Positions 392 to 46,870 of a stretch of 64,000 nt of DNA are shown here, piece after piece. Made by a program: the position numbers and the translations under genes. Source of the stretch: Branchiostoma floridae (Eukaryota > Chordata > Leptocardii > Amphioxiformes > Branchiostomatidae); contig NC_049993.1 of NCBI RefSeq assembly GCF_000003815.2, forward strand, positions 17,330,656 to 17,394,655, written 5' to 3'. How positions within the stretch are numbered: the first letter of the stretch is position 1; each line of letters starts with the position of its first letter. The notes under the pieces were generated by a model that was not told the DNA's origin, ran no database searches, and was given only the letters and a program-made list of their open reading frames with translations.

Positions 392-624
392 TTGGTGTAC
401 GCAGCGCTGTGGCCAGGTTTCACTCCCAAGTAGACTCACGGTTTCTACTCGCCTCTTGTGTTTCAGGTACGCTGTCCATGACGGCTGTAGAAGACTGGCT
501 GCCCTGGTTGGTGCCTGGGCACTGCTACGTGCTGTGTGCGTACCTATGGATGGTGTACGCAGCGCTGTGGCCAGGTTTCACTCCCAAGTAGACTCATGGT
601 TTCTACTCGCCTCTTGTGTTTCAG
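392..624 (+). repeat. Exon-edge minisatellite, acceptor side of ALG2 exon 625-802
   Basis: A unit of about 159 bp is repeated ahead of the intact exon. Each unit has the end of a partial exon copy (GTGTACGCAGCGCTGTGG), a short piece starting CCAGGTTTCACTCCCAAG, then the acceptor TTGTGTTTCAG and the start of the exon. A partial exon copy runs 467-571, preserving the acceptor and about 100 nt of coding sequence, and then drops into the next unit. The tail of an even earlier unit is at 392-411. The copies differ from the exon at several positions, for example VEDWLPW instead of VGDWLPR, so they are not recent identical duplicates. Confidence 0.85.
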
Positions 625-3600
625 GTACGCTGTCCGTGACCGCTGTAGGAGACTGGCTGCCCCGTTCTGTACTGGGCCACTGCTACGCACTGTGTGCGTA
701 CCTACGGATGGTGTATGCGGCTCTATGGCTTGTGGTGGCGAGCCGCTGGGACTACCAGGTCGTCTTCTGCGATCAGATCTCGGCATGTGTGCCCTTCCTC
801 AGGTAAGTGTGTGTGTGTGTGTTCTTGTCTACTTGAAGCATTACTAAGTCGATCTATAGTAACTAGGGCTGGGTATCGGTACAGCGTACCGGTACAAAAC
901 CGGTTTTTCTTATTGGACCGGTCCAGAAAAACCGGACCTGAAAAAGTTAGATGGACCGGATGTTGGACCGATTAGAAAATTAACATATTATTTTATCAGG
1001 CATTCACACCTTTTGGCGCTTGCAGTTGGAAGAAAATGACAAGAGTGAAGTAGAGTAGAGTTTATAGTAATTTCTACCAAGGTTTACAGTCAATCGTACA
1101 GGTGCAGTTAGCGCTGTAGGATTTTAAAACGCCAGTGTAAGTCTAATACTCCACCAAACAGATTTCTTTGTAGTGAAATGGACAATTGGTATGAGTCATA
1201 CTGAATCAGGTCCAGGTTCAGGTCCGGACCTGGACCTGATCCTTTGGACCTGAACCGGACCTGGACCTGAATTTTCTGTACCGGTACCCAGCCCTAATAG
1301 TAACCATTCAAATCACTTTGTTATATACAAATCTTCATGTGTATGTACAAGGAACTGTTATGTGTGTATATGTGAATGTGTTGTGTCACTGTGTGTGTGT
1401 GTGTGTACATGTGTGTGTGCAGTATGTACTGTATATGTGTGTGCATACCTACGGATGGTGTACGCGGCGCTGTGGCTAGTGGTGGCGAGCCGCTGGGACT
1501 ACCAGGTGGTTTTCTGCGATCAGATCTCAGTGTGTGTGCCGTTCCTGAGGTAAGAGGAGCGCATGTTTGTAAGTGTGTGTGTGTGTGTGTGTCTGTGTGT
1601 GAGCGTGTGTGTATGTGTGTCTGGATGTGTGTGTGTCTGCGAGGGCATGTATGTGAGGTCTCCATATTACATTACTTAATACCATCACACACTTTGACTC
1701 TGATACATACACTTTTTAGACTCAAAAATTCCTGACTTTCCCCCTTGTTATCCCAGGCTGAACCGCTGGGCCCGTGTGATCTTCTACTGCCACTTCCCCG
1801 ACCAGCTGTTGACTCAGAGACGCAGCGCGCTCAAGCGGCTGTACCGAGCACCCATCGATTGGCTGGAGGAGACCACCACCGGCATGGCTGACTGTGTGCT
1901 GGTCAACAGCAACTTCACAGGTGTGTACACGTGTGTGTAGTGTGTACTGTATGTGTGTGTGTGTGTGTACATGTGTGTGCAGTGTGTACTGTATTTGTGT
2001 GTTTACATGTGTGTACACCCATCGACTGGCTGGAGGAGACCACAACAGGCATGGCCGACTGTGTGCTGGTCAACAGCAACTTCACAGGTCAGTTGTTGTG
2101 TGTGTGTGTGTGTGTGTGTGTACATGTGTGCAGTGTGACTGCTGTATTTGTGTGTTTACATGTGTGTACATGTATGGGCACCCATCGACTGGCTGGAGGA
2201 GACCACCACAGGCATGGCCGACTGTGTGCTGGTCAACAGCAACTTCACAGGTCAGTTGTTCACTTAAGCTGTTTGTGTGTGTATGTGTACGTGTGTGCAG
2301 TGTGTAATGTATGTGTGTACATGTGTGAGCGCCCATCGACTGGCTGGAAGAGACCACTACAGGCATGGCCGACTGTGTGCTGGTCAACAGCAACTTCACA
2401 GGTCAGTTTGAAAGCTAGCTGTTTGTGTGTGTGTGTGTGTGTGTGTGCACACGTGTGTGCAGTGTGTACTGTATGTATGTGTGTACATGTGTGTACACCC
2501 ATCGACTGGCTGGAAGAGACCACACTACGGGCATGGCCGACTGTGTGCTGGTCAACAGCAACTTCACGGGTCAGTTGGTTAGGTAGCTGTGGTACACAAT
2601 CTTTTACTGTCAGGAGCTGACTTCCTCTAGAGGCCTGACCAGCAGAAAAGCTGCTGGAAGCATAATTTAGTCAGGCGAAGTTCTTCATTATGGTTTACGT
2701 ATGCTATCATGGTGTAGGAGAAAGTTTCATCATCTTTTTTTCTTGTTACAATCTTCATTCCACCCTTATACTACAAGTACGAAAGATGGTTACCTAGCTA
2801 ATGTTTTGGCAACTGCCGTCCTCAGGGCCTGATGAAGTTAGTATTTCTTGCTACAGGGTGGCCAGAATGATGTTTTGAGTTGCCAAAATGTTGGTCAGAC
2901 ATTGTGTTAAGATTATGTACAAAGAACCTTATTTTCCAATAATAACTTGATAAAGAAGTGCAATGTATTCATTGATCTTTTCCCAACGCACAGAAATGGT
3001 AGATGTGCAAATGTAAAATGTACTGATCAAAAACAAAAGTTTAACAATGAGTGATTTCGTGAATTTCCTCCCCCTCTCAGCTGGTGTGTTCAGAGACACG
3101 TTCCGCTCGCTGACACACGTGACCCCCGCCGTGTTGTACCCCTCCCTCAACTTCTCTGTCTTTTTTCTGTACCGGTGCCTAGTACTAAAATTAGCATTGT
3201 TACTGATATGTGTGGACCATTTCTCTCTCTGCAGCTGGTGTGTTCAGAGACACGTTCCGCTCGCTGGCACACGTGACCCCCGCCGTGTTGTACCCCTCGC
3301 TCAACTTCTCCGCTTTCGACGCGACCGTGGACCCGCCCGGAGACCTCGTCCCGCAGGGGGTGGGAACCGTCTTCCTGTCAATCAACCGCTACGAGAGGAA
3401 GAAGAACCTCAGTCTCGCCATCAGGGCGCTCGGTAGGTATTACAAGGGTGTGCTTCCATCAATTACCTAAAATGATGACCAACTTCTTTTGTTTGAGAAG
3501 ATATTACCTTCACACAGAACATACCATAAAGAGCTGCACATTTGGCAATGAGATTTGGCATTTTCAGGTCAAAACTTTTCATGCCAATTTTGGTGATCTT

Positions 3601-6600
3601 GCATGGATTCACTCAAGAAAGGGATTACATGTATCTATCAATTTATTTGGGTCATTGGATTCAGTGTCATATGACAGCTGCTCCAGATATCTCAGCCTCA
3701 TGTCATAAACTTCCACAACTCAGGCCAAGCCATAAGGAAACTAGAGTTCCTCGAACACATATCTTCGCCAAATAAACAATTTCTATGGAAGATAGTTCTT
3801 TTTGAATGATTAATGTGTATAAGTCCATACATTATCTAGTCACATCATGTAGTGGTTGGTTGGATTATGAACATTGTGAGTAGATTAGTCTATTCTGTCG
3901 GTGTACATAATGCAGCAAATGTTTTGGCGATGTGAATGAATGTCTTTGCATAATCAGAACAATTTGTACAGGTATGAGGTTACTGTTCTATTTTGTGTTG
4001 TCATAATTACTTTCGGAGAGCTGGTTATGTTTTGGGTAGCGTTTGTATGTATGTATGTATGTATGTATGTATGTATGTAGAAACCAGCAAATTGAAGACC
4101 GGCTGAATGGATTGAAGTGATATTTGGTATGTGGGTAGGTCTTGGAAACCTGGAAACCACAGGAAGTCACGCCGATAATTGCATTCGTCACTCACCAAAC
4201 CCCGGCCACTGTAACAGTTGTTCCTTCCAATTTACGGAACTTTTTAACTCACCAAGGGTCATCTAAGGGCCATATGTAAGGATTGCTACGACCCCCGCCT
4301 TGGTGAACGTTTGTTTCAATCTCATGAAAATAGAAAGTAAAGTTTTGCAGTCGCGAGTTAAGTCAGAGGTATTTTACAGAGTCCAAGGTTATGATTTCTG
4401 CGACTGTCCGATGACAGCCGCCTGTCACCTTTGGCGATTTGTATTTCTCGCAATGATGTCAGTTCTTTCTAGCCGACCTTTCCCTTACAACATGACATCT
4501 CTGTTAAGAGTTGAGGAATGCGTGGATAATTGACGGTGACCCTTTTGACCTAAGTGCTGTTCTTCAACATGTTGGGTTTGTCTTGTCCCAGCACTTGGTC
4601 ACTTGTTGTTTTAACCTAGTTCACAGATGTAAGTACTATGTGTTACAAGCCGTCATTGTTCAATTATGTTATATTACTGACTTTACATAGTACTTATTCG
4701 TTTGTTTAGACCCATGTAGTGTTACTGGCACATGGAACACCAAGTTTCCTTGCAGTCCATCATAAGAAAATACACCTGAAGTGTCTCGTAGATATTAGCT
4801 CTACATCTTTATATCAAGTGATATTCGTCAAGTTCCCTCTACTACATTTTTACCGTTCCTATGATATAGTGTTGCTTTTATTGTTGATCTGTATATAGAT
4901 ATAAGCAACACTTGTATATAGATATGTTATATTTCAACTGCTATGAATCCTTTGCTGTGTGCCGTCGTATTGACATCAATTCAGCAAGCTATTTAATTGC
5001 TTAATTTTATAGATACGTGTTGGACGCGGTCAGGCTTTGTATTTTGCTAACATGAACCATGACCATTTATAGGCATTTTTCAGCCAGTAGTCTCTACCAG
5101 ACTCCATCCTGGCGGAATAGTACACGGATGACCTAGTAACATCCCTGGTCAATCAGAATTTCATGCTTCCAAGACAACGTCTGACCCACCTCTTCTCTAT
5201 TTTTAGACATCTATGGGTCGATTCAAGTCCTTTCAGGTGACTCCGTCACAAGTATTTTTCAACCGTTATAGAAGTTTCCCTAAGTAATTATATTAAATAC
5301 AGAGTGATTTATATAATTTGCCTCTCATTATGTTGATAATCATCCAAAGTACCTACCTACCAAAAACAAAAAATATCCATCAATCCCCTCAGGAGTTATC
5401 CATCTAAAAAGTTACGAAATATAACACCCACTGCAATTCCAAACAAGCTGCTAGGGGGCCCAAAATTAGACCATTGACTCCTAGTACCAACAGCTATCCA
5501 CCAGTAAAAAATCACGAACCTGGCACTTCTGGAAAATTTAGGCGCAAACTTTGATGCTCACTTGCAGTACCAAAACAATTTGCCAGGAGGCCCATTATCG
5601 AACTTGACCTTCCTTTCTGTGTCCCCTACCTATCAACCAAATATCATTAACATCCATCAAGAACATCTCGAGTTATCTTGCTTACAGACAAACGCACTTA
5701 CATACAAAGCCAGCTACAGCACCATAGGTAAAAGGTAGCTAAACCATTCTCGCACATGGCAATCCTTTCCACAGCCGCTACAGACCTGCCAAATATCGTG
5801 GAAATCGCCCAGCTACATTTTGACTTATGCCTCCCGAAAAAACACCAAAAAAAATACCAAGCTCGCTAATGTACCATAGGAAAACGCCAGGTAACCCATT
5901 TTCGAACTAGGCATGCCTTTAAACAACCGCTACACACCTGCAAAAAATAAAAAAGTTCCATCCACAATTTCTCGAGTTATATCCTGTTGACCTACATACA
6001 AACCCAAGTCGGCAAAAACATAAGCTTCTTGGCGAAGCTAAATAGTTACCCTACTTTCCTTACATGTATTATGGGAATGTGTTAGAAAAATAGGGCCTGA
6101 CAATGCTATAATCTTCCATCCAAACAGCTGCTTGAAGATTTAGTCTCAACTATCAAGCTGAATAACACAGTTCCAACAGAAAAACTATTATTATTTAACA
6201 CTACAAATCTGTCCATTGCAGGAAAAGTGAAGGACACTGTACCAGTCGACCAGTGGCCAACAGTACATCTCATCATGGCCGGCGGTTACGACAATCGCGT
6301 CGTCGAAAACGTCGAGCATCACCAAGAACTTGTCTCACTTGCGGAAGAGCTCAACCTCACAGACCACATCACTTTCCTGCGTTCCTTCAGCGATGCCCAG
6401 AAGAGAACTCTCCTCACCCACAGTACCTGCCTCCTGTACACCCCTAGTAATGAGCATTTTGGTATCGTCCCGCTGGAAGCGATGTACATGAAATGCCCTG
6501 TGATCGCAGTCAACAGTGGCGGCCCTTTGGAAACCGTTGGCGATAAAGAAACCGGTTTCCTTTGCGATCCTGACGCTGAGAGTTTCTCCAAAGCGATGCG

Positions 6601-10907: not shown

Positions 10908-13900
10908 TTATGCCAGCTTGAGTTTCTTCCAGGCAGGTGTTGTGTCCTTCTCCTTGGCCTCCTGTTCGTCTATCTCCTGTTCTAACGTCTTCTCTGCCAG
11001 TTTAGGGTCAGGCTGCGTTCTGTAGGAGATACAAGACAATAGATACAGTTTTTTAAAAACAAGACAAATTTATATTTAAAATCTGAACAATATACGTTTG
11101 AATGAAGTAGAACAATCAAGACTTTAAAATCGATCATGTACATTCAACAAGTAGAGCTACTTTCAACCTGAAGTGATGTTCACAACGATACTAGAAGCAG
11201 AAATCTTCCCAACATGTATCTACAGTCATGTCCCACATATCACCTCAAGTTCTTTTACTACAATGCCCAAATAACGTAAGAATAGACTTGTTGTGCAAAT
11301 AAATACAGAAAAAAAACACACAGTAGGAAACATACATCTTGTACACGTGACCGAGGTACACAGGGTTCTCCTCTGCCTCCTTAGCGTGGCGCAGGATGGA
11401 CTCTCGAGGGTTGGAGTCATCGATGATGTTGGGGGCAATGGTTCGGGAGATGTAGGATGACAGTGTACTGCCGGTCGCTCCCAGTCTACCACCAGCACCT
11501 GTGATAGAGGAAATATAGTCAATAGCAAAATTTACAATGCACTATAATATATCCGCTTGTCTTAGTCTTACTGCAACATAACTGTAAAGGTAAGCTCCTC
11601 CCAGAAGATTCTATCCCTGTATGTCACTCCCAGTCTACCGCCAGCACCTATGATAGCAGAAATCTAGTTACTATCAACATTTACAATGCACTATCATATC
11701 TGGTTTGTGTAAACTATGTAGATGTTGGGGGCGATGGTTCAGGAGATGTACAACGACAGCATACTGCTGGTTGCTCCCAGTGCCTGTAATAGGGGAGGTC
11801 AATGTCAACATCTACAATTCACTATGATAATCGTATCTAAGAAAAGGTAAGAAAAGGACATACCAGCTCCACTGACAGGGAGGTCGGGTCTGTGAGACCG
11901 CAGGGGGTCCAAGCGATCCTTCTTTGGTGCAGTTTTGCACCTATTACTCTTATATTACTCTGAACGACCTGTCACCTTTAACCTGTGACCTTTGCGTACA
12001 AACAAAAGAATAGAAGAGGCAGTGACGTACCAGCTCCACTGACAGGGAGGTCGGGTCTGTGAGACCGCAGGGGGTCCGAGCGATCCTTCACCAGCTGTTT
12101 CCACGCCATCCGCCCGCGCCGGTTCTCTCGGAATATCGGAAGGGCGTGAGCTGTAGTGACAGCAAACAGAATACATCAAATCTGTGCAGTGCTACTGTAG
12201 TAGACAAATTTCCATAAATACCATCTGGTCATTGTGACCCCTTTTTGGTGGCTGCTAGGATTTTTCTATTAATGAACTATGTATTATAAAGCCAGTCTAT
12301 AGTTGCCACCTGTCTTTTGTGACTATTGTCTTCAAGTCCTTGAGTGGTTTGGCTATACATCACATCTTAGATAATTGTACATCAGGTCTTTGAGGAGACT
12401 TGTGACAACTCACTGACTAGTAGGTCTACAGGCATTAGAATGAGCAGTGAATAGACTGGCAAATATAACAATCTGGTACCATAATACACACCACACATGT
12501 ACTATGTAAGTGCACACACTACTAGGCCAAGTCTAGGGCACTTGCAGAAGGTTGGTAAGATCTGACAATTAAAAGAAGACTTTATGGGGGGCTTTAGACT
12601 CAAGTTAACAGAATGTACCATAGAAAAGGCACTACTGTAGTAATTTTCAATCCAGTGATGTAACCTTGAATGGAGATGTTCGAACATATAAAAATGTCCT
12701 GCATTGCTAATTTATTGATTGACTGGTACTTGTACTTACGTGTGAGGATCTGTTCATGCACCACAGTCTCCACCTGTTTCATACTTCTCTTGGTCTTCAC
12801 AACACACTGTTTGGCTCCTCTGTTATACAATTATAGAAAAATACACAACAAATTCAGTCTATTTTTCAAGAAACACTCAGCATCCTCCAGATATACATCT
12901 CTAATGACTATCGCAACTTCAGCTACTGCTTTCTACATGATAACATTTTCTTTACAGATGTGAGGGTAATTCTCCCTGAAGAAGTTCAAGGTTTGACTCA
13001 AACTTTCAACATTTCATGTTTATTTTTGTTTAATTGCTGATTAAACTTAACATGTCATGTTGTTGGGAAAGAAGACAGTTTGAGTCTTAAATTTTAGTCA
13101 GGACATCTATACCAACAGATTTCTTTATATCCTTAAGTAACAAAACTTGTATGAAACATAAGAAAACCTACTTGTGGCTCTTGTTAGGATCGTAGAAGAC
13201 CTTAGCCTTGCCGTTGCTGCACCCAACAATGATCTGGTTTAACCTGTAATGCCACAGACACCGGACTACACCCTGGAAAAAAACACACAACAAATGTCAA
13301 TAAGACTTACACTGTTACAGAACCTGAATATCTTTATCAGTGATTACGATGGCTAGTATGTTGATTCAATCTATAGTCACATAAAAACATGACATCTTTG
13401 CCCAACATTGTACCTATTCCTAGTCAAGAGAGACTTTTACAGGTTTTCAACCACTTTAAGCAAAGCATCTTTTTATACTAAAACTTTATTTTAATACATT
13501 AAATGAATGGAAAAAATGCTGTGGATTATAAATGCTTAATTTTTTTAGGCAAAGCACACAAATTGTTTTCATTGACATGTGTGCAATGGCTAACCGTTGT
13601 AATCATTGAGAAAATAGCATCATTTCATCATATCATTATCAAATGGTGTAAACCTATGTGTTAACAAAGTGCTATTAATGATAGAGACAGAGTCTAAGGG
13701 GAAAAACTCACAGTATCCTCCAGTTCTATCTCATCCACCGTCCTGAAGGTTTCCCTGTCCAGGAACACCAGTTTGCCATTCCCCTCTCCCTTCTTCACCT
13801 GTGTACCTGTCACCACCATCTTATCATCAGGGCTGAACGTGCAATCAGTCCTGAAGGACAGAGACAAAATAAAATGCATCTCAAGCAAGGCAGTAGTATA

Positions 13901-16900: not shown

Positions 16901-19900
16901 TTCACACATTTTACTCAATATACATTTATTCCTAATGACAGTGCATGTGAGAATTGCTTGTTTGCTTGCCAAGAACATTTATGTCAACATGGAAGTGATT
17001 TGGATACAGTTACTACAAACAACATGCACAGACTGAAGATTGTTTCTGTGACCGAACTACTGAATCTTCAAACAAGTCCCAAATTTGGGATGGTTTCAGT
17101 AAGTTGTAAAGATCTTACCTATCATCTGAGCAGGTCAGAAACAGTCCCTTGGTCCTTGGGTGCCAGCAGGCACTGTTGAGGGACGCTACATGGCCCTGTA
17201 GTATGGGAAAATGTCACATCACGTAATTGTAATCTCGAAACATCTAGCTGCAGTAAATCTTTGTTTTTATCCAGTTGTACTTGTAGAGATTGAGCTACAT
17301 TGCTTCATTTGTTCCTTTCATTCATTCATCATTTCTTCATTCATTCATTTATACTAAATTATAGTTGATTCAAAGACAAACCTTAGTCTTGGCCATGTCC
17401 TGTAGATACTGGTCTCCTTTAGAACACTCCAGCACTTCAAACCCATCTCTGTCAAAAACCTTGGCCTGGGAGTTTCCTGCTGCTATCAGGATCATGTCAC
17501 CCGTTATGGTGTAGGCCAGGGATCTGATGTTGTGGCTGGAATGGAAAATTAGTATTAGGTCAACTGACATGACGATCATTCCTCCCTCAAATATTCTGAA
17601 ATATTCAAGTTAGTTTAGATGTACATTAAGGACAGAATTCAGGATCATGTGTCCCGTTATGGTGTAGGCCAGGGATCTAATGTTGTGACTGGGGAGGGGA
17701 ATTTGTACTGGGTCAACTGGCATGAAGATCATCACTCCCAAAAATACTGTGCAAGAAGATATGTGTCTTATGCTTTATCAATCATCTACTGCAAGTCAAT
17801 AAATGTACATGCACATGTAGACCTCTGGCATAGGAACTTACTCAATAGGGGACAACAAAATTAATAGTGGCAGTTCAGTTCATCCAAGGAGAGGTGACAC
17901 CATAGTGTCAGCTGTTACAAAATTGTCCATGAAGCTAAAATCATTTCTGATTTCAAACACATATCTTAGCTAACAGCAAAATTTGCCCCTCAAAATTAAG
18001 GACGAAGCATTTCAGAGGGTCAAGATTTCAACATTTTCCCATGGAGCATAACCCTGGACCCCCCTAGGATCGCCGTGCCTTTAATTATAGGATTTCCATT
18101 CAAAATCCAGGGGACGGAAAAAAAATCAGGCTGGCTAGAACATTGATTCAGACAATAAAGTAGATAGATGGGTTGAAAACTCACCATTCGCAGGGTTGTA
18201 TTGTGCGGAAGGACTGGAGGCTGGCATCCATCGCCGCAAAGTCCCAGAACCTAATGTCGTAATCGTAGCCTCCTGTGATCAGCCGCGACCCAGACGGGTC
18301 AAGGGCAAGGGCAGACACCTGAAAGATAAAACATCATGTACATTTCTACTTTAACTTACATATACTACTGTGTAGGCATTATGCCTAGTGAGCATCAAGA
18401 ACTTATCCCTGTGTGGCCAGTGGTCATACAGTAAAACAAAATGGAGTGCATGACATAGTAAAATAAACATGTGTTATGTGATTATACATAGTCATGTACA
18501 TGCCTTAGCAGCAGTTGGGAATGCATGTACCTGGGGATTTTTCATACTACACATGCAATTAAGTGTGGGGACATGTGTAGCACAGTAGTTTGTTTGATGC
18601 GCATTTGTCTTAATCTGAATTGGTCAACAATCTAGCTTTACAGTCATGCACAGATAACTATCAATTTGCAGATAGAGACCATCATGTCCTATGGTTCTTA
18701 TATTGTCATAGACAATATAATGATGTTAATCCGTGAAGAAATACCACAATTTTACTTACCGTTTTATTTCCATGTTCCAATGTGATCTCATGACTCGCAG
18801 GTATTCTCTTATCAAGGGGCTGGAAGAGAAGGGGGAAAATCATATATATACAAGAAATGGAATAAAATCCTTCAAAGTGTTAGAAGACACTACATTACTT
18901 AGTAGTCCCCTGTTATTTTGTATGGAATTAGGAGGAGTGGTCCAACTCTCTGTCATTCTTAAAAAAGGCAAATACATCTCCATTATTACAACATGCAATG
19001 TCAAAACTGATCAATGTTATCTGAGATCTGTCATTTAATGAAAGCCACAAATGAAGATTAGTTTGATCATCAACACTACTGAGACCATTTCTTACATCAT
19101 AACTTTAAAGTAATTAACCAACCAACAATGCTGACACTAAAAACAGTCACATGACTACACCATAATGTACAGTGATTGGTCAAGAACTGCTATGACTCAC
19201 ATCCTCCTCCTCTTCCTCATCACTGTCCTCATCAGAGTCCCTGGGAGGCAGAGGAGGGCCGATAAACTCTTCATCTGCGTCTTTACCTGCAGCTGTCTTC
19301 TGTAATGTAAAAGTATAACTTAAAATTTGGTTATACACCTAGACTTGCATTTAATGAAAACCCTTGTGTGACCATTATTAGAATATTCTTCAATCAGTAA
19401 TGATTTGAAAGGCATATAAAAACTACATCCCTCCCTGTGTGACCATTGTGAACACTTTTTGATCTTAGAACACTACAGTTTTACTTCTAGTTCCAATATA
19501 TTGCCTGCCTACTGTGACCATTTTCCTTGACTCTCCAAGGAGGTTACTGATGAACTTTATTAAATTGCTCAACATTTGTACATAGTACAATGTATGGCAA
19601 CGACTGATAAAAAAGGCAATGGTACTGCCAAAACTATACAGGCTTGACTGTACTTGTGATACTGGAAACTTTACTCTAAATATTGGGTTACTGATGAGAG
19701 GAACAGAAACTGAATACCTACATGTACTAGTATAGTGGTAACACCAAAGGGACAATTTGTTCAAGGATTAGAAAAATGCCAGCATTAGATAAATGAATAC
19801 ATGTAACAGAACCGGAAAGCCTAGTTGGCTAAACAATTATTTTCTATAATAATAATAATAATAGCCTTTGGTTATCCCTTTCCTAAGAATTACTTTTACA

Positions 19901-22900
19901 GCAATCTCACTTGAGGTGGAGGTAGTGGTGGTCCGATCATTTCATCATCTGATGAGTCTGAATCATCTGAGTCTGAATCTGGTGATGGTTTCTGGCTGGC
20001 TGCTGAGGTGGAAGGTTGGGGGCCAGAGCGAGGTCTGGGAGGGGGTGGGGGCATCCTGTCCTCATCTGAACTGTCACTTCCTCTTGCTGCCTCTCTCTCC
20101 TCTGGGATGGGAAAAAAACAAAACAAGGTTTTCATTACTGAAGAAAACTTATATGTCTGTATAAGTTAACATTACATTAACATTGTAACAAGTGACACAA
20201 GTAGGCTTGAGTGTAGTTGGTAATTAGTTACTAGTAGTAGGTTTGCATTAATACTAAATAAAATTATTGTATATCAAAATAAATATTGATGTTTCCTAAA
20301 TCTTATCATCATGTGAGTTTGGATCAAAGTTGGTCCTAGGAGAGATCCCGATCGCAATCAGTACTAGTAGAATCGCCGATTGTCCTAGGACAGATCACAA
20401 TCGCAGTCTGTTTCCCGTGTCTGGGCGGCATATGAGTTTGGATCGGAGTTGGCCCTAGGAGAGACCCCGATCGCAATCTATACTAGTAGAATCACCGATT
20501 CTCCCAGGAGATCTAGAGATCCCGATCGGAGTTGGCCCTAGGACCAGCTCCGATAGCGATCTCTCCTAGGAGAATCGACGATTCTACTGGATCGTGATCT
20601 CTACTGTGACGTATACATAAGCAACAGACTGCCTCATACTCATAACATACCACACAGTCACAAGTTATGAAGTTATAAAGTGGGGGCTTGTGACCAGGGC
20701 TTGTTTTCAATATATATATATACTGTCACTTCCTCTCACTGCCTCTCTTTCCTCTGGGATGGGACAAGAACAGAACAAAGTTTTCATCACTGAAGGAAAC
20801 TTAAAGGTTTGTACAAGACCTTAGCACTAGTGCAGAAAGGATGAACTGCCTGATAGAATAATACACCATTTGTGTTAATGTACCCAGAGAGCTGATAACA
20901 TAGTTCACTTCCTTGTTTTCCTGGTCCAGAGGCAGGCTAGATCTAATCTTTGTAACTAGTTGGATAGGACGTTAAATGGAGGTCCCGTGTCTGGGGACGA
21001 GAACCCCCACACGTGCGATGGTGCGGTGGATCAAATCATTCTGTCTGACTGGAGTTGGTGATTCACTACAAATCACCGGATAGAGGCCTGGCGAACCTCT
21101 GTCTCGTATCAGCCACATGGTGAATTACATCATTCACCCAGACGGGAGACCTGGCGCATCCCCGTCTTGTAATTAGCCAGCAAAAGGGTATATCACCCCG
21201 TAAGGGACGGTATAACCCCGTCGTGTGTAAATATGTGCAATCACACGACCGATGATGATGATGATGAGATCTAACCACAGAATATTTCAATACCATGAAA
21301 ATTGCTAATATATACAGGTAACTTTGCATATACTACATGTAATTTATGATATATCATTACGGCACAGCTTACCAAACACTTTCCGTGACCTTTCTTGCGC
21401 TGTCTTCTTGGTCTGTTCAAGTATGGAGTCAAGGTCAAAAGTCATGGCTTTTTTCTTTGTTCCTGTTGGTCAGATAAATTAATGGATAAAGATTACAAAA
21501 TCATGTGTGGCAACAAAAACATAGCATGTTCAAAAGTGATTGCTAAGGACTGACAATTCTTTTTGACTTTCTGCTAGTGAGACTTTTAGACTATTAGGAG
21601 GGACATCAAGGTGTGCAGTCTAACATAGTAACAGGGATGGACCCACTAGACAGAGACGCATGGAGGCGCAGTGCGAAGACTAGACTGCTGCCTACCCCTG
21701 TGTCAGGGATTCCAGCAGCAGTATAATAAAAAAAAAATGGATACTACTACTATTTATTTGTTTATTTATACTACTACTTTATTGATACTACTACTACTAG
21801 TTGGAGAAGTGCCTAACATAGCGGTATGTGCAGTGTACATTCCTCCGGGATCACCACATACCGGCGCTTTGGTCGAACACCTGAGCACCGTGGTTGATCA
21901 AATACGATTGACAACCCCTAATGCTGGAATATGTATCGCCGGTGATTTTAATCGCGCAGACGTCCAGGACCTCTGTCGTGGTAATCAGCTCCGGCAAATC
22001 GTCGATGTACCTACGAGGCTAGACGCCACCTTGGACTTAGTTATCACCAACCTTGGACACATGTACCTCCCACCTTCTTTGCTACCTCCCCTGGGCTCAA
22101 GTGATCACAAGATTCTAAACTTACAACCCAGGGCTCAAGTTGAAATACCCAAGACAAGGTCAAAGGTTGTTAGACCCATGCCCGACTCCAGCGTCAGATC
22201 CTTCGGTCAATGGCTGGTAAACCACGAATGGACTGAAGTTCTATCTGCAACAGGCGTGCAGTCTAAGACTGACGCTTTCTACCAGACATTGCACAACAAG
22301 ATCGACCAGTACTTTCCTGTAAAGACTATCAAACTCCATACCAACGATAAGCCATGGATCAGTCCCAAAATCAAAAGCCTCATACAACAACGACAACAAG
22401 CTTTCAATGCCCAAGACCATGACAGGTACAAGCAACTTCGACACAAAGTAAAACAAGAAATACTAAGTGCAAAGAAAAACTTCTACAAGGACAAAGTGAA
22501 CACCATAAAGAAAGAAAACCCATCAAAATGGTACCAGCAGATCAAGGTCATGACGAACACGTCAGGAACAGGTCTCACCCTCCACGTTGAAGGTGCACCA
22601 CCAGGAGACAACAAGGCTGTCGCTGACGCAGTAAACAATGCTCTGTGCACAATAACCTGCTCACTCGACCCACTAGACAACACTAGACTACCAACATTTC
22701 TCCCAGCTAGGCCTTTGGACGAGGTGCAGCCGTGGCAAGTGTACGAAAAGTTGAAACACGTCAAAGTGAACAAAGCCGCAGGACCGGACGGTCTTTCCAA
22801 CAGAATCATCAAGTGCTTTGCCTATGAGATTTCTACACCAGTAACGTCCATATTGAATGCCTCACTATCGGAGGGGGTCGTCCCAGAACAATGGCGACAG

Positions 22901-35455: not shown

Positions 35456-35469
35456 TTTCTTACATGTAC

Positions 35470-38400
35470 CTGAGAGTTCTCCAGGATCCTGGCAGGTGAG
35501 GTGCTCTTCGGGACGACAACCACGCCCCTCTGTACCTGCCACCTGAGGCACACCTGTGGAAGATGGAACACCTGGTTAGTCGCTCACCTCACCTTTATTA
35601 CACCTCATAAAAATTTTTGGTCAATTTGGAGGGTCATGTTCAACATTTTTTTAGACCTGATCAGACACTGTTCCACAAGTAAAAACTTGCAATGTACCAC
35701 TGCATTGGTTGAAAATGCACCAGCTAGAGTAAATAGATTGAACAAAAGAACTCAAGTTATACCTGTGCTGGAGTTTTCTTGTGCTTTTCTGCGATTGCAA
35801 TCACCTTTGGATCCTTGAGGGGACTGACACCATGCAGGCTCTCCTCCCTGGAAGAGAGAACTTGCTGTGAGTCTGAATTGAAGTCCATGTCTGGACCTGA
35901 ACCTGGACCTAATTATTGTGTGTGAACTTGGTCCATTTTGCTACAAAGGAAATTCTACATTTGATGGTTCAGGAGTACTATCTTCAATATCAAAGACATA
36001 GTTTTTTTTACGAACAACACCAATTGCCTCTGTTGACCAAGTTTCGCTGTCTTGTGTTGGAACAAGGAAACACAAAGAAATTTGATGCAGTTATATGAGC
36101 ATTAATAATGGTTGTATGATTTCCTCGCCACATCAGAACATGAACACAAAAAAATAAATACAATGTACCGGCAAAATCAATATACTTTCCGTGCAACCAG
36201 CACGCCCGGATGATGATGATGATACTTTGCTATTTAACTGTTTAAGAACTGATCAGTCATATAGCAGTCAATTACTGATATTTGATTGTTGTATAAAAGA
36301 AAAACAGATTTGTACAGTACCCAGGTCTGCCAAGTGGGCTGAATGCCGTTATGATGACATTGTTGTCTGCAGCACACTTCAGAAGCTTGCTGCACACCAG
36401 GTAGGGGTGGGACTCCACCTGGAGATTGGGAGGGAGAAATAAAATGTGACTATATTAGAAAGCAACACCTCCAAACAATATTGCTGCTAGTATTTTATCT
36501 CTATTTGGGTTGCATACAATGTATTTCTGATTCATTTTTTATGTATTCACCAATTGATCTAAAATGGGAAAATTCAAATAACTGCATTACACAGTCACCT
36601 CTTCTCCACTGATACTAAATGCATTTTGCACCGGGTAGATTAAAATATAATGTTTCTTCTCTTAAATCCCTGCGTAAATTAACTGCATGGGTGTGGGTGG
36701 GTGGTTGTTTGGCTCTGGGGGTTGTAACAGTGTGGTTTATGCGCCGCCAAAGGGTCTGAAAGTGGTTTGCGGTGTTAGGTTTGTGAACTGACGGCACTGG
36801 TTTGGCACGGGCTCGAATAATAGGAGCCAGGGTTTATACTTGCCCCTTGTGTTTCAGGGTTAACATAAGGCAAAGTTAAATAATTAAGTGTGATACATTC
36901 TCAAGTACAGTAGAAGCCAGTTACTTGATTGACAGCTGGTTTGATCCTACCATTGGTCAGATTGTTCAAATGAAATGGAAGTGACCTTATAAGGTAAATT
37001 CTGGGAGGATCTAACTTGATTGACAGCTGGTTTGATCCTACCATTGGTCAGATTGTTCAAATCAAATTGAAGTGACCTTATAAGGTAAAATTCTGGGAGA
37101 AGCTTACTTGATTGACAGCTGGTTTGATCCTCCCATTGGTCAGAACCTCTTCCATCTGTGAGATGTTGAAGTTGGACACACCGATGGCCTTCACCAGTCC
37201 TGCGTCCACAAGCTTCTCCATGGCCTGAAAAAGATGAAAAAATTAAACATAATAACTGATAGGGAAAAATAACTTGTTTTTGCTGATGTGTTCTTATTTC
37301 TTCATTTTCTTCTTCAGTACTTACACAGTAGTAGCTGTTCAATATGAACAATGACAGTGTATTTTCGAGGTGACCGGATAAGGATTTGGAGGATAGGGGT
37401 AACCAAGGAGGTTGAACAAGGGGCTTATAATTCAGCCTCCTTGGGGTAACAGTTCAGTTCAGTCATCCATATCAGGTGACATATGCTGTTTAAGTTGAAG
37501 TGTAAGGTGTAGTTTCTAAAATATGCATTATGTCTATTAAAAAGCAGGTATACATAAACTTTTTGGCGAATCTTATTACCTGGATGTCTAACCTACATCG
37601 ACGTGTGTGTATGTCGACTGAGAATATCATTGATCATTTTCTTAGGATAACATTAAGAATATATTGCAAAATCTTACTGACCTCATTAACATAATTTATG
37701 CTATTTTCAAAAACAGACAAAGATTTAGGTAGATACTGACAATTCTGAAAACCTAACATATTTTCATTTGCTTAAACCTTCAAATAACACTTGTACGCTA
37801 GCATTTCCACCAATGTTAAATCTTATGGTTTTTAAAACCTAATAGTAGTGAAAGACCATACAGAGTATATGATATATTTTGGCATCAATAACGATGCTGA
37901 CCTAGACAGCTTTATTACGTCATTTCCGGAGTTAATCCGTTAATTCTAATTGTTTTTGGACGCCCATGATTGACGCTTTCAATACATGGGTGGATTTACA
38001 CACAAAGGAAGTTGTCTGAGTCTAGCGGTAGGCCGCCTGCCAAGGAATTGTTGTCGTGGATGTTATAAAGAGTCAACAGATAATGGCTACCCACTGCGCT
38101 CATAAAATGCCCCCGTCAGCGCACACTCATGGCCCTATCAAGAAACATGTTGAGATTGAGAATAATTATAGACATATTGTCTTGTTACGGTATCATCCTG
38201 TTCTGGTCATTTTCGAAGAGCCTTTTTTGTCCTCTAATATAGGCTAAAGGGACTGCCTGCTTTTTTCCGTAAGACATATAGACAGCCTATTTTCATTTCC
38301 TCGTAGGGAAAAAAAAAATTACCATCTTATCTACGTAATTCGTAGCGAGGCGACCAAATTTAGCATAATTGCCTTCCTTGATTAAGCGAAATACGTAGGG

Positions 38401-41400: not shown

Positions 41401-44400
41401 GGCGTTTTAGAATCATACAACGCTAACTGCACCCTTACGATTGACAGTAAAACCTGGTAGAAATGACTATAAACTCTGTACTCTAGTTCACTCTTGTTAT
41501 TATCTTCCACCTGCAAGAGCCAAAACGTGTGAATGCCTGATAAAAAGTCTGTTAATTTTCTAATCGGTCCAACATCCGGTCCACCTATTCTTTTCAGGTC
41601 CGGTTTTTCTGGACCGGTCCAATAAGAAAAACCGGGTTTGTACCGGTACGCTGTACCGATACCCAGCCCTATATGTGACGCATTTTGACATCAATCATAA
41701 TGCTAGCGTGATCAACTTTTACGATACAGAACCTTCTTGAATTTGTTCTTTTCATATTTTTTGGACACCCATTCAGCGGCCTTTGGCGCTTTTCAGCGGC
41801 CTTGGCGCTTTCAATAAATGGGTGAATTTACACACAAAGGAAGTTGTACAGTTAAGGTCTCATTGATGTATTACTCCGCGAGTGGGTAACCCTAAAATAG
41901 ATACGAGCCAAAAACTAAACGGCTGTATAGACGCATGTTTTTAGCGGTGAGAAATTCCCTTTTAGCCAGCGGAACTGATATCAAAAGTTAGATTGGTGAA
42001 AGCTTGTTTGTAACTGAAGAAATTAGCAGGTAAAGCTTTGCAGCCGCGCGCTAGGTCGGAGGTACACAGTCCTGGGTTCTGAGTGGTGCGGTTGTACACT
42101 AGCAGCGAAAAAGTGCCTTTTGTGGGGATTAACTAATCGTAGTTTGTAATTGCTATAAAAAAAAGAACCTACGTATAGTTGACGTTGGCAATTTTTCCCC
42201 ACGATAAAGGATAAATGTGCTCAACAGAGAATGAAAAATCTGCTAAAATTTTACTTAGCTTCATTAGAACGCGGCCATGTAAACCACGAATTATAACATA
42301 GAAGTCTATGGGAAAAAGAAACTCATCAATGAGACCCTATTAAAGCTAAGGGCACAACCCGCCGTACGTGCAAATACGTGCTGTCTACGTGCCAAAACGT
42401 GTGCAATCTTTTGGGATCCGTAAGTGGTAAGTACTGCCTCCGTACGAACTCGTAGGGAATCCAACGGATTTTGGAGCACACAGACACGCCGTAGAACTTT
42501 ACAATGTACGTGCAGGCAAAACTTTGTGTGCCATCTGGCTGCGGATTCGCCCCCCGTACAGTTTTGTACGTGCCAGTACGGGCAACGCGCCTGCCCTGTA
42601 CAGCCTGAACGATTTCAGAAATACATGGCCGACGTGGCCTCCCAAAAAACGGACGGACAAATTGCATGTATGGCGGGTTGTGCCCTTAGCTTAAGCAAAC
42701 ACACTCTTTTCATCAGTCTATCCTCTAACAGGCTTTTTGTAGACCTTATTAACATAATTTATGCCATTTTTAAGACTAGACAAATTATAATATGCTGAGA
42801 ATTCTGAAGAAAACCTAACATAGATTTGTGCTCAAACCTTCACATAACACTTGCAGTCAAGTTTCACTTGTGTTTTGATAACTTTTAGATTTTTTACTGC
42901 TTGTATTGTGGTGAAAAACCATAGAGAATATGTGATGTACTTAGCAAAAAGCTAAGATGCTAACTGTCCTTTATTTCACCAAACCGTACAACATTCCCTA
43001 TAATTACTAATTCGAATTATTTTTGGAAACCCATGATTGGCGCTTTCAATACATGGGTTGAAATAAAGATGAAAGAAGTATGAACAATCTTACATTAACA
43101 GTCTTTTCCAGGCTCTATAGAAATATTAAACCCTCTTCCCAAATGATTTTGGTACTGACCCCATTAACAAAATACTTCCTTTTATTTTTAAGACAGTTTT
43201 GAGGATAATATTATAGACTACTTGTACTGGAAAGAACATGTTATATTCTGCCCTCCCCCAATCCTTTTTGATAACAGGCCTCATTATCATAATTTATGCC
43301 ACTTCCTTAAAAAGTCCAAAATTTAAGTAAATGTATGAATTCTGAGTACTTGATATACATTTTATGCTGACTACCTTGATGATTACTTATACAATGAAAC
43401 TTTTGATCTATGTTTTGTAAGATATATGAGTGAATAGCCTATAACATTGTGACAAAACCACAAAATAAACACAAAACCTTTTGGATTTGGACATGGAGAA
43501 TGAGTAGTTTACTCATTTAATGAAGCTAATCCCCATACTGGGGGGTCATTATGATCCGATTTAAACAAATTTTTGAACACCCATGTTGGCGCTTCAACGT
43601 GGGTAGAAATAAACAAAAAAACATGATAAAATGTTTATTGCTATAGTGAGTAAACACTCTTATCTTTAGAAACTTAAGGCATACTAAATGTCCCCACAGT
43701 CTTTGGGTCAGGAGGAACAGCATTTTATCTCAAACTGCCCCCTTGTAAAAGAAAAGGTTCTAAGTATGATCAAGAGAGGAAAGGGCTCTTAAAAGAAGTC
43801 ACCAAATTCTATCCTAATATCTCCATGTTTACAGACAAAAAGAAAACTGTTCTTTTAACGTCGCAAAACTCACACATTACTGTACAGAAGAAGTGAGATC
43901 TTTTGTCTTCCACTGTCTCAGAAAAAGAAGTCCAACCTAATAAGTTATACATCTTTAACTAGTTTAAGTTAGACTAGAGTAGTTCCTTACTATACTGTTT
44001 ACCATTACCCGTATGTCATTTTTGTCACTTGCAATTAGCCCTCGGGCAAGAATTTGCAATAAAACTTATCTATTTTATTAAGCTCTCCCATTTTGATCAA
44101 CTGGGTATCGGTACAGCGTACCGGTACAAAACCGTTTTTTCTTATTGGACCGGTCCAGAAAAACCGGACCTGAAAAAATTAGGTGCACCGGATGTTGGAC
44201 CGATTAGAAAATTAACATATCATTTTATCAGGCATTCACACGTTTTGGCGCTTGCAGTTGGAGTTTAAGTTTAAGTCTAGACAGAAATCTGTCTAGTGAA
44301 ATGGACCATTGGTATGAGTCATACTGAATCAGGTTCAGGTCCGGACCTGGACCTGATCCTTTGGACCTGAACCGGACCTGGACCTGAATTTTCTGTACCG

Positions 44401-46870
44401 GTACCCAGCCCTAGTGACAACATTAGAAAGCAACACGTCCAAACAATATTGCTAGTGTAACAGTGGTGTTCAAGTACTGTCTATCGTCCTTGCCCAACGG
44501 CACTAGTGCTTTTGTGGCGACAGTGATAGCGTTCGCGATTTGTAATCTGCCGCCCCGGGTTCGATCCCCGGGTGGGGGCATGTTGTTTCTTTCTGTTCTT
44601 ACCCGCCCCTCTATATTTCTACACTGGTTCCCATGCCGACCCTGTGAGTAACAGGCTAGCGGATGTGCCACACAGGGATGTCGAACTCGGAGATTCGAGG
44701 ACGAATCTTGAAAAGAAAAGGGGGAGTAGTGTAACAGTGGTGTTCAAGTACTGTCTATCGTCCTTGCCCAACGGCACTAGTGCTTTTGTGGCGACAGTGA
44801 TAGCGTTCTCGATTTGTAATCTGCCGCCCCGGGTTCGATCCCCGGGTGGGGGCATGTTGTTTCTTTCTGTTCTTACCCGCCCCTCTATATTTCTACACTG
44901 CTAGTATTCTTTAATATGTATTCACCAAATCTAAAATGGGGAAACTCAATAACTGTATTACACAGTCACCCCTTCTCCACTGATCTTGAAAGCATTTCGC
45001 ACCAAGTAGATTAAAATATAATATTTCTTCTCTTAAATCCTTGCGTAATTTTGCATAAATAATAAGAGCTTGTTTACAATGTCCTTGTTTATATTTGTGA
45101 AATTATATGTGTGGCATTAGGTGATCTGCCAGTTCTGTACTTCAGTTCTTCCTGCACAACATTAATTACATAGAACTTTTGCTGAAGCAAGTACTGCGTT
45201 TCTTTGCGGGGCAGCAGTACAGTAGGTGACTTACAGTATACTGTAATGCATTTAAGTCCGCGGGGATTTAATTTCGCGGTTGCGGGAAAATGGACTTTTC
45301 GCGGTGGTTTTAATTTCGCGGTAGCACCATGCACTGTAGTCTCTTACTGTTATGGAAAAATTTTCGCGGTGGTTTTAAATTCACGGTGAAGCGGCCGTCG
45401 CAAAAACCACGAACATTAATCCAACGCGAACATTTCTGCATTTACAGTATGGCACAGCACAGGGAGCTCACAGCCAAAGCGAACACTCCATTCCAGCTAC
45501 TGCGAAATTAAATCCCTGCAAACTTGAATGCAACACAAACCAGAGACAGGAAACCATCATGGTATGAGGTGACCTCTTCCCATTCAATGATTCATCCCAG
45601 TTAGTAGTGTTCATAGTCCAACTTGGTTAGTGGCCCTGCCTCTGGAACTAGAAGCCGTGAGTTCGATTCCGGCTTTGTCGCTCACCCGACATGCACGCTA
45701 CTGGAAACGGTTGCAGTCCTCAGGATGGGACGTTAAGACGTAGTTCACTGTTCATTGTGCTTGCTGAAAAGAGCTAGGGGAATATTCCCAGTATAATGAA
45801 CCTGTACTGTACCCTAAGCGTCTGTCTAATCTCTGTCACGACCAGTGGAAGACTAGCTCTTCAGTGAGATAAAACTGGATCGAGATCACGTTACTTTTTC
45901 CATAAGTTTACTTTCCTAGCAACTTTAGTAACACTTAGCCGAAGCGACTTTTAAATGTTGTAAAAAGTGTATCAAAGAAAATTAACTGCATGGGTGTGGG
46001 TCAGGGTGGTTGTTTGGCTCTGGGCGTTGTAACAGTGTGGTTTATGCGCCGCCAAAGGGTCTGAAAGTGGTTTGCGGTGTTAGGTTTGTTAACTGACGGC
46101 ACTGGTTCGGCACGGGCTCGAATAATAGGAGCCAGGGTTTATACTCGCCCCTTGTGTTTCAGGGTTAACATAAGTCAAGGTTAAACAATTAAGTGTGATA
46201 CATTCTCAAGTACAGTAGAAGCCAGTTAATTGCACAAAAGATTAAAGCACACTTCTGCTAACTGCACGGAATCCCAAAAGCCCAAACTGATGTGGTCCAG
46301 CTGGATAACTTCACATTATTGCACCAACCAGATAATTGCACAAAATTCACTGGCAAATAGGTCGTGCAATTAAGCGGCTTCTACTGTACTTTCAAAAGCT
46401 ATATTGATGCTATATATTATTGATCACATTAATAGAAAAATCTATAGTTCCTATTGGCTGAGAGGATTCTTACACTTACTAGATTGACAGCTGGTTTGAT
46501 CCTCCCATTGGTCAGATTGTTCAAATCAAATTGAAGTGACCTTATAAGGTAAAATTCTGGGAGGAGCTTACTTGATTGACAGCTGGTTTGATCCTCCCAT
46601 TGGTCAGATTGTTCAAATCAAATTGAAGTGACCTTATAAGGTAAAATTCTGGGAGGAGCTTACTTGATTGACAGCTGGTTTTTCCTCCCATTGGTCAGAT
46701 TGTTCAAATCAAATTGAAGTGACCTTATAAGGTAAATTCTGGGAGGAGCTTACTTGATTGACAGCTGGTTTGATCCTCCCATTGGTCAGAACTTTCTCCA
46801 TCTGTGAGATGTTGAAGTTGGACACACCGATCGCCTTCACCAGTCCTGCATCCACAAGCTTCTCCATGGC
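35470..46870 (-). CDS. AKR1-type aldo-keto reductase, C-terminal half only, with a duplicated exon
   Basis: Exons in gene order: 46754-46870 (copy B) and 37108-37224 (copy A), each 117 nt, both encoding [20 protein letters not shown] and [19 protein letters not shown]; then 36321-36418 ([20 protein letters not shown], ending AFSPLG), 35763-35847 ([17 protein letters not shown]) and 35470-35553 ([20 protein letters not shown], ending ENSQ). Phases fit. The sequence matches the second half of the AKR (beta/alpha)8 barrel, closest in memory to AKR1A1 (LLRWQVQR, PKSxTPxRIL), an NADPH-dependent carbonyl reductase; the PKS motif binds the cofactor phosphate. The catalytic Asp-Tyr-Lys-His half and the final exon after ENSQ were not found. 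The gene may be incomplete here, or be a fragment. Copies A and B differ at E/K (MEEVL against MEKVL) and lie in two halves of a segmental duplication. Confidence 0.75.
36925..37051 (-). repeat. Exon-edge minisatellite, donor side of AKR exon A (two copies)
   Basis: The last about 36 nt of the exon ([12 protein letters not shown]) are copied at 36925-36960 and 37016-37051, spaced about 92 bp. Each is followed by the intron unit TGACCTTATAAGGTAAA-TTCTGGGAG. Both lie downstream of the intact exon in gene orientation. The first copy's junction reads TTGATT|GTAACT in place of the exon's donor. Confidence 0.85.
37403..37445. repeat. Hairpin CCAAGGAGGTTGAACAAGG..
   Basis: An imperfect inverted repeat (AACCAAGGAGGTTGAAC paired with TTCAGCCTCCTTGG). 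Its paralogue at 47051-47090 has a different but still pairing sequence (AGAAGGTTGAACAAGG with CCTTGTTCAACCTCTT). Confidence 0.6.
38907..39118. mobile_element. Palindromic MITE, TACTGTAAATGC termini (copy A)
   Basis: Begins TACTGTAAATGCAGAAATG and ends with the inverse (GCATTTACAGTA). The interior has repeated CCGCGAA blocks in both orientations. The paralogous site 48614-48829 is also filled, so insertion preceded the segmental duplication. A separate copy in inverse orientation is at 45238-45449. Confidence 0.8.
39410..39552. pseudogene. Fragment of the lectin/EGF gene first visible exon, copied into the array
   Basis: This aligns with 34380-34525: CCAGAGAAGATGCCCCTACT, GGGAAAATACGAAT and ACATCAATCCTAGGTT are shared. 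It therefore includes part of exon 34332-34459 and its upstream intron. The coding frame is disrupted. The same fragment occurs in copy B at 49181-49318. Confidence 0.7.
39773..41093. mobile_element. Tc1/mariner-like non-autonomous element with TA target duplication
   Basis: The terminal inverted repeat CCGTATATTCTCGAATAAAG is found at both ends, inverted at 41065-41093. TA flanks both ends (39771-39772 and 41094-41095), and the motif AAAGTACGCACCCC is iterated inside. There is no transposase ORF. The paralogous position in copy B (TA at 49535-49536) is empty, which confirms the boundaries. Confidence 0.9.
39845..40537. mobile_element. Nested long-foldback element
   Basis: Arms at about 39848-39990 and 40350-40500 are inverted copies (CAACTGGATATGGTTTTGAA, ACTTTCCTTCGTCAGTGACA). 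The right end carries an extra tail, CTTATTACCTGGATGTCTAA. AAGTCTTAGACAG (13 bp) flanks both sides (39832-39844 and 40538-40550). A 10-base G run sits near 40183. It is inserted inside the 39773-41093 element. A fragment of its right end is at about 37563. Confidence 0.8.
41244..41671. mobile_element. hAT-like MITE, 428 bp, copy A only
   Basis: Same family as 864-1296 in inverse orientation, starting TAGGGGTGGGTACCGG. The target duplication is TATGTGAC (41236-41243 and 41672-41679). In copy B the site is single and uninterrupted (49678-49685). Confidence 0.92.
42343..42693. mobile_element. MITE with GCTAAGGGCACAACCCGCC termini (copy A)
   Basis: Inverted termini at 42345-42372 and 42665-42692 bracket 350 bp rich in TACGTGC repeats. 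TTAA lies at both edges, which would suit a piggyBac-type element, but one base is out of register. ORFs of over 100 codons inside it are by-products of the inverted structure. It also occurs in copy B (50353-50702), and a single end lies at about 61900. Confidence 0.75.
43620..44100. other. Unique sequence between duplication copies
   Basis: No exon, RNA gene or recurring repeat recognised. Confidence 0.4.
44101..44412. mobile_element. hAT-like MITE, shortened, at the left edge of copy B
   Basis: Family of 864-1296 (CTGGGTATCGGTACAGCG to GTACCCAGCCCTA) with about 120 bp missing from the middle. The left terminus lacks the TAGGG bases. The homology between copies A and B begins immediately after it, so it may mark the duplication breakpoint. 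Confidence 0.75.
44456..44899. mobile_element. LTR retrotransposon in miniature (TRIM-type) with tRNA-like sequence in its LTRs
   Basis: Two 170-bp direct repeats (44456-44625 and 44730-44899) begin TGTAACAGTGG and end TTTCTACACT; they differ at only about one base. They flank a 104-bp interior. The interior starts GGTTCCCATGCCGACC, where a primer-binding site would be, and ends in a purine run, GAAAAGAAAAGGGGGAGTAG. The 5-bp target duplication is GCTAG (44451-44455 and 44900-44904). The paralogous site in copy A is empty (about 36486-36490). There is no coding capacity. Each LTR contains CCCCGGGTTCGATCCCCGGG, a tRNA T-arm with box B. Confidence 0.82.
45238..45449. mobile_element. Palindromic MITE, TACTGTAA..TTTACAGTA
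   Basis: Independent insertion of the family at 38907-39118, in the opposite orientation (TTTCGCGGTGGTTTTAA blocks). It is in copy-B-specific sequence. Confidence 0.75.
45605..45900 (+). mobile_element. tRNA-derived SINE, second family
   Basis: Box A-like TTGGTTAGTGG (45623-45633) and box B GAGTTCGATTCC (about 45659-45670) are 26 bp apart, as in tRNA genes. The body runs through CAGGATGGGACGTTAAGACG to about 45900 and resembles no other element in the window. Confidence 0.65.
46481..46698 (-). repeat. Exon-edge minisatellite, donor side of AKR exon B (three copies)
   Basis: Copies of the last about 36 nt of the exon lie at about 46481-46515, 46572-46607 and 46664-46698, with the intact exon at 46754. 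Spacing is 82-92 bp. All carry the same intron unit (TTGAAGTGACCTTATAAGG). Copy A has two such copies, so the array has changed size since the duplication. Confidence 0.88.

Follow-up and report, generated by a model that had tools for sequence, protein, structure and literature searches.

Minisatellites whose units span exon-intron boundaries have been described in amphioxus under the name of mirages. The accessible text of PMC3087553 describes globin mirages whose units measure 150-160 and 157 bp, with 6 units in one haplotype and 3 in another. It also refers to Adh3 (10-72 bp) among further loci and considers the mechanism unclear; mirages may, according to this source, be general in cephalochordates, and they are proposed as raw material for new introns. 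The accessible text of PMC3902484 adds PGBD5 (60 and 108 bp) to these loci and mentions troponin C. In these parts, both papers treat mirages gene by gene. Here we analyse a stretch of 64,000 nucleotides from Branchiostoma floridae (NCBI RefSeq assembly GCF_000003815.2, contig NC_049993.1, positions 17,330,656 to 17,394,655 of the forward strand; "the window"), in which exon ends of ALG2, WDR70 and an AKR gene have been copied together with their splice sites into the adjoining introns. These copies are called echoes in the following.

The structure of the echoes is not new. They are further instances of amphioxus mirages, and the link to the Adh locus, which had been drawn in a first-pass annotation of the sequence, is correct according to the accessible parts of both papers. 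We consider it likely that the echoes are mirage minisatellites that form the exon-edge subset of short local tandem duplications found genome-wide. Our results suggest that mirages are nothing particular to splice sites, and that they are one aspect of a common process of tandem duplication, in part of nucleosome scale, which can be counted across the genome. Among the matches listed in our literature searches, which had most subscription papers outside their coverage, there was no genome-wide mirage count and no amphioxus-wide report on unit lengths.

Echoed exon edges in three genes

The three genes were identified by tblastn, using human protein sequences as queries, and the identity of WDR70 was also indicated by a match to PDB sequence 6zym_p (E 2.2e-85). 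The 5' exon of ALG2 was not found within the window. Local copies were detected by self-BLAST, Tandem Repeats Finder (TRF) and pairwise alignment. Echoes were found at 9 of the 48 mapped splice edges (ALG2 4/7, WDR70 4/33, AKR 1/8), or at 10 edges if the duplicated AKR exon is included, which agrees with the "about ten" exon ends of the first-pass annotation. Both 5' and 3' exon ends are affected, and AG or GT has been retained in many units. The live exons are intact, and the surplus units sit in introns. At every echoed edge, the copies lie upstream of the live exon on the acceptor side and downstream of it on the donor side; this rule had been noted before, as had its explanation, and the geometry is as expected from tandem duplication across the boundary. 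The previously noted donor arrays, with four echoes in ALG2 and two and three in the AKR gene and its duplicated exon, were found as well (Table 1). Since a second-order Markov control of 232.5 kb yielded no local duplications at all, chance can be excluded as the source of the echoes.

Table 1. Genes, echoes and further features of the window (positions in window coordinates)
Feature	Position	Strand	Unit, lag or spacing (bp)	Live edge or remark
ALG2, mapped exons	625-801, 1757-1920, ~3235-3431, ~6222-6823	+		
ALG2 exon 2 acceptor echo	388..545	+	unit/lag 158	live first exon base 625
ALG2 exon 2 donor echo	1438..1554	+	lag 747	live last exon base 801
ALG2 exon 3 donor, four echoes	2016..2577 (starts ~2016, 2178, 2329, 2496)	+	spacing 151-167	live last exon base 1920
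ALG2 exon 4 acceptor echo	3069..3163	+	lag 153	live acceptor ~3235
WDR70, 17 coding exons located	between 10908 and 21462	-		
WDR70 acceptor 17535 echo	17639..17754	-	lag 153	live exon 17382-17535
WDR70 acceptor 11498, two echoes	~11622-11708, ~11701-11832	-	units ~148 and 131	live exon 11336-11498
WDR70 donor 12031 echo	~11832..11922	-	lag 167	live exon 12031-12150, the exon preceding 11336-11498
WDR70 acceptor 20101 echo	~20722..20829	-	lag 652-655	live exon 19911-20101
WDR70 last coding exon end, copies behind stop codon	10395..10834 (whole set 10395-10976)	-		not a splice boundary
WDR70 purely intronic local duplication	20322..20588	-	lag 202	not at a boundary
AKR gene, four exons located	35470-37224	-		one exon duplicated at ~46.8 kb
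AKR donor 37108, two echoes	36923..37107	-	unit 91	live exon 37108-37224
Duplicated AKR exon, three donor echoes	46475..46751 (whole array 46475-46790)	-	unit 91-92	
TRIM-like open reading frame (ORF)	7654-9864	-		intronless; name from the first-pass annotation
EGF-like region	~27.4-33.5 kb	-		~12 candidate coding fragments in a codon-score scan (not exon-mapped); Pfam EGF

The copies behind the WDR70 stop codon follow the same placement rule as the splice-edge echoes. A dispersed element (~864-1315, in ALG2 intron 2) lies between exon 2 and its donor echo, and copies of it are present in the AKR region at 41244-41671 and 44101-44432. An inverted repeat (220-387, arms of ~50 bp), which by eye resembles a miniature inverted-repeat transposable element, adjoins the first ALG2 echo on its left. 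Between the WDR70 20101 edge and its echo 652 bp away, a search for a hidden array gave no convincing units. Duplication of a whole intron was considered as the source of the WDR70 11498 and 12031 echoes and was rejected, as the order of a donor echo followed by an acceptor echo is the wrong one. The AKR region contains a segmental duplication (36530-39772 / 44906-49537 and 41670-43077 / 49676-51084, pieces 86-97% identical), which may reflect either a genuine tandem duplication or the placement of two haplotypes in tandem. Away from mapped exons, a 174-bp segment occurs twice (44453-44626 and 44727-44900) with 99.4% identity and a distance of 274 bp.

The first-pass annotation had also described the intronless TRIM gene as free of echoes. 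Self-BLAST indeed detected no local duplication in this ORF, but the observation is uninformative, since a duplication in a coding ORF would be selected against. One ORF of the EGF-like region (30951-31358) had no match among PDB sequences, and a Pfam scan of the plus strand at 51-61 kb was likewise negative. A long ORF at 21650-24166 resembles, by eye, the reverse transcriptase of a non-LTR (long terminal repeat) retrotransposon.

Background rate and unit lengths

To obtain a genomic background, we analysed twenty 10-kb stretches at round coordinates of our choice (192,620 bases without N) together with four more (39,900 bases). Local direct duplications cover 12.2% of the former and 4.5% of the latter, together 10.9% of 232.5 kb, with a coverage per stretch of 0 to 45% among the first 20. 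In the window itself, 10.9% of the bases are likewise in local duplications. The 9 echoed edges correspond to 18.8% of the 48 (P 0.07-0.12 against the background). For exons outside the window, we chose 18 regions at Pfam matches to the helicase C-terminal domain from 112 listed, mainly short, stop-free, internal-exon-like ones. Locus L046 had been picked for its doubled match and was omitted from the edge count. In the 17 remaining loci, only one of 20 coding matches (in L031) overlaps a local duplication by at least 12 bases. Taking the helicase exons as 1 echoed edge in 40, 10 of 88 edges are affected overall, where 9.6 would be expected (P 0.49). Our reading of this small outside sample is that exon edges are struck at about the background rate, and that the apparent bias is mostly ascertainment.

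Unit lengths were compiled for 337,322 bases, i.e. the window, the 24 stretches and the 18 helicase regions. There were 36 tandem loci without a homologue in this sample, which does not imply uniqueness in the genome: 24 have units of 140-199 bp, 8 of 90-139 bp, one of 40-89 bp, none of 200-259 bp, and three are longer. The 24 stretches alone gave 17, 5 and 0 of 24 loci at 140-199, 90-139 and 200-259 bp, respectively. A lag scan with a fixed 50-base window, counted in 400-base blocks so that a single array may count repeatedly, placed 25 of 63 blocks of the stretches at 140-199 bp, 3 at 100-139 bp and 2 at 200-259 bp; in the window, 8 of 18 blocks fell at 140-199 bp. TRF found 91 clusters in the whole sample, with 10 at 140-199 bp and one each at 100-139 and 200-259 bp; most TRF periods (50/91) are 10-29 bp, so that 140-199 bp is one class among others. 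Due to the increase of detection probability with unit length, as observed in a simulation control, the drop at 200 bp does not stem from detection.

The 140-199 bp class includes six of the window's nine echoed edges (ALG2 lags 158, 151-167 and 153; WDR70 153, 148 and 167) as well as the helicase echoes (144; 142 and 164). Outside this class are the ALG2 exon 2 donor (747, across the inserted element), WDR70 20101 (652) and the AKR arrays (91-92). Copy numbers in the list of tandem loci range from 1.4 to 9.4. At L024 8618-10000, about nine copies of a 147-bp unit continue up to where the fetched stretch ends.

A single ancient satellite was considered as the common source of all units. The comparison of 20 units in 190 pairs gave no sign of it, with only 2 pairs aligning slightly above the best shuffled pair; yet 3 of 8 loci checked against the genome are dispersed repeats. 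This check was confined to 8 non-exonic loci; our genome-wide DNA searches covered 513,431,437 bp and skip common words. Four loci (units 158, 168, 175 and 191) had no other genome match, and one (unit 155) had one partial match 7 kb away. From what is known of chromatin and replication, the size of 140-199 bp may correspond to a nucleosome repeat or an Okazaki fragment.

The mechanism that we propose is as follows. A duplication may land anywhere in the genome. If it lies wholly in coding sequence, selection would mostly purge it. If it extends across a single splice site, the reading frame would be retained along with one complete splice site, and the surplus copy would become intron, so that acceptor copies would come to lie upstream and donor copies downstream. 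Splicing would skip the echoes, and the arrays may afterwards grow, shrink and exchange sequence. In view of the unit peak at ~140-199 bp, the process behind many units probably works on the scale of nucleosomes or Okazaki fragments; shorter unit classes comprise, among others, the AKR arrays (91-92 bp). If the peak survives repeat masking, chromatin or lagging-strand replication would be indicated as its source. A bolder version, which we regard as doubtful, would assume that this genome is generally duplicated in units of one nucleosome repeat or Okazaki fragment, with mirages as the exon-edge trace of this process; echoes would keep exchanging with working exons, and introns would thus store coding-competent exon ends that record past alleles.

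Silent differences and competing explanations

The differences between echoes and live exons were compared with a neutral simulation, in which the echo evolves neutrally and the live exon accepts silent changes only. This was done for 13 in-register pairs, 10 from the window and 3 from helicase loci; 4 of the 14 window rows (the first WDR70 11498 echo and three AKR rows) were dropped because they were out of register. The ALG2 exon 2 donor echo has 11 synonymous changes and 1 non-synonymous change in 36 codons, and none of 4000 simulations was as extreme. The ratios for the first three ALG2 exon 3 echoes are 4:0 (P 0.011), 3:0 (P 0.035) and 6:0 (P 0.001), and for the fourth, counted behind an insertion only, 2:0 (P 0.11). 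The helicase exon at L046 680-1480 is accompanied by several echoes on its acceptor side, with lags of 142 and 164 bp. Echo A of this locus gave 11:0 (0/5000 simulations) and echo B 10:3 (P 0.001; the last codon is at the unit junction). The L031 echo gave 5:0 (P 0.004). L031 and L046 are located at C6:2.68 Mb and C17:15.00 Mb. By contrast, a neutral-like pattern was found for ALG2 exon 2 acceptor (7:6), ALG2 exon 4, WDR70 17535 and WDR70 20101 (2:1 each), and WDR70 12031 (0:1). With 13 pairs, single P values of ~0.01 weigh little; the strongest cases are the ALG2 exon 2 donor and L046. The near-silent-only differences of some ALG2 and helicase echoes are not what neutral decay gives.

Within one unit, the divergence of the exon part and that of the intron part can differ widely, in either direction. 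In the WDR70 12031 donor echo, 1 of 57 exon bases differs and the intron part is poorly alignable; similarly, 3 of 75 exon bases differ in the ALG2 exon 4 acceptor echo, with an intron part that is weakly alignable. The ALG2 exon 2 acceptor echo differs at 13 of 75 exon bases vs 2 of 79 bases before the splice site, and the L031 echo at 5 of 75 exon bases (all silent) vs 0 of 38 adjoining intron bases. The WDR70 12031 echo has Leu where the live exon has Ser, and human WDR70 has Leu at this position as well. Copy numbers vary as well. Within this one assembly, the AKR arrays hold two and three echoes, and a GGT-for-GGG variant is common to both A-array AKR echoes and absent from the other five units. 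The L031 exon edge (RecQ-like) has one clear echo at L031, five matches at the paralogue C6:2640424-2641059 (spacing 144, 144, 144 and 129) and a single match at C6:2727939. These patterns fit arrays that may expand, contract and homogenise.

Several results weigh against an origin of the echoes in general local duplication. The helicase control is small and rough and may undercount: edges were not mapped singly, copies that miss the Pfam match by a few bases escape, and duplications in five other helicase loci could touch unmapped exons. The unit-length peak is not uniform, as 10 further blocks out of 63 in the lag scan of the stretches lie at 260-319 bp, and 8 of 17 blocks in the helicase regions at 55-99 bp vs 5 at 140-199 bp. 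In the genome check, two of the eight loci (units 164 and 167) are abundant dispersed repeats and one (155) has weak partial matches elsewhere, which means that repeat families contribute to the peak. The published units of Adh3 (10-72 bp) and PGBD5 (60 and 108 bp), as given in the accessible texts, are below it. Synonymous-only echoes do not fit a wholly inert copy. Finally, of the 11 local duplication loci within the three genes, 9 span an edge, against 3.1 predicted by random placement sparing coding sequence (P 0.0002). As the live exon is conserved, boundary duplications stay detectable 1.2-1.4-fold longer in simulations; with a 1.4-fold advantage the expectation is 3.8 (P 0.0014), and with a 3-fold advantage 5.7 (P 0.04). 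This count omits the WDR70 stop-codon set and counts the WDR70 array at 11.4-12.1 kb twice, once per edge; an alternative count gave 8 of 9 loci at edges (P 0.0002; 0.0013 at 1.5-fold). It is this test that favours a mutational process aimed at splice boundaries, for instance through transcription, splicing or nucleosomes positioned on exons, which are known to exist. The first-pass annotation had proposed such a bias. We nevertheless consider it quite unlikely: the window was picked because of its echoes, edge coverage equals the background once the helicase exons are included, and no local duplication was found in the EGF-like region. An assembly artefact, with pieces of the other haplotype placed in tandem, would be conceivable in a species described as highly heterozygous in the accessible part of PMC12862219, and the window contains a duplication of the AKR region. 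Against this, the window contains no N bases, the multi-copy arrays are evenly spaced, and the silent divergence is well above the allelic average. The same structure is also present in unrelated genes and at published loci, and the PGBD5 repeats are supported by re-sequencing, according to the accessible text of PMC3902484. An artefact is thus very improbable.

The synonymous-only echoes leave two further explanations to be weighed beside an origin in general local duplication. Some echoes might be functional, in that they serve as alternative exon ends or cassette exons and are maintained by selection at the protein level. The almost exclusively synonymous differences in the ALG2 exon 2 donor, ALG2 exon 3, L046 and L031 echoes would agree with this, as would the L031 echo being 75 bp long, in frame and flanked by AG before and GT after. 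However, the ALG2 exon 2 acceptor echo and the second, farther WDR70 11498 echo, which bears an in-frame stop (read by eye from the alignment), decay neutrally, the fourth ALG2 exon 3 echo carries a 2-base insertion, and in-frame readthrough of ALG2 exon 3 into the intron reaches a stop. L046 had been selected for the match of its echo to the protein profile, a criterion biased towards coding-like echoes, and the identity of the 38 intron bases adjoining the L031 echo is unexpected for an old selected copy. In the accessible text of PMC3087553, globin and Adh3 mirages are reported without disturbance of regular splicing. We therefore regard a function of the echoes as unlikely. Alternatively, the synonymous-only echoes would owe their origin or their present sequence to exchange with an allele or paralogue in which the exon is functional, and would carry the silent differences of that copy. 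This is well possible, if short of probable. As far as the sequences go, the mosaic divergence of exon and intron parts in WDR70 12031, ALG2 exon 2 acceptor and L031 would speak for such exchange, and the L031 echo is closer to a paralogue 48 kb away (95%) than to its own live exon (93%), but the gap is a single base. Gene conversion at heterozygous sites of B. floridae is given as orders of magnitude likelier than new mutation in the accessible part of PMC12862219. On the other hand, the average silent diversity of 0.0397 stated there is well below 11 silent changes in 36 codons, so an ordinary allele does not explain the ALG2 exon 2 donor echo, and genome DNA searches with ALG2 exons 2 and 3 found no second copy of the gene. 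Should echoes continue to lack amino-acid changes, they would have to be either in use or renewed by exchange, and each of these options is open to direct testing in amphioxus. The unit-length peak and the synonymous echoes deserve genome-wide study.

Comparison with known systems

According to the accessible part of PMC8122249, satellite units mostly have either nucleosomal length or a length of 5-10 bp. The peak class described here resembles nucleosome-length satellite DNA in its unit of ~140-200 bp, the AKR arrays (91-92 bp) excepted. It differs from such satellites in that the arrays are short (1.4 to 9.4 copies) and scattered, with units that are mostly unrelated to each other, and in that half of the eight checked loci match nothing else in the genome. 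The echoes also share with intron gain by tandem duplication the tandem copies carrying splice signals; unlike in that process, they lie inside existing introns, and no new intron is shown.

The closest relatives are the mirages of amphioxus (Adh3, troponin C, globin BflGb6 and BflGb9, PGBD5). As far as the accessible texts describe them, these have in common with our echoes boundary-spanning tandem units beside a live exon that is kept, intronic echoes with splice signals on acceptor and donor sides, differences in copy number (in our data among gene copies) and, for globin, units of 150-160 and 157 bp. Synonymous-only echoes are found here and are not mentioned in the accessible parts of PMC3087553 and PMC3902484. 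Unlike the published mirages, those described here were counted against a genomic background, occur several per gene, and have new host genes, namely ALG2, WDR70, the AKR gene and two helicase genes.

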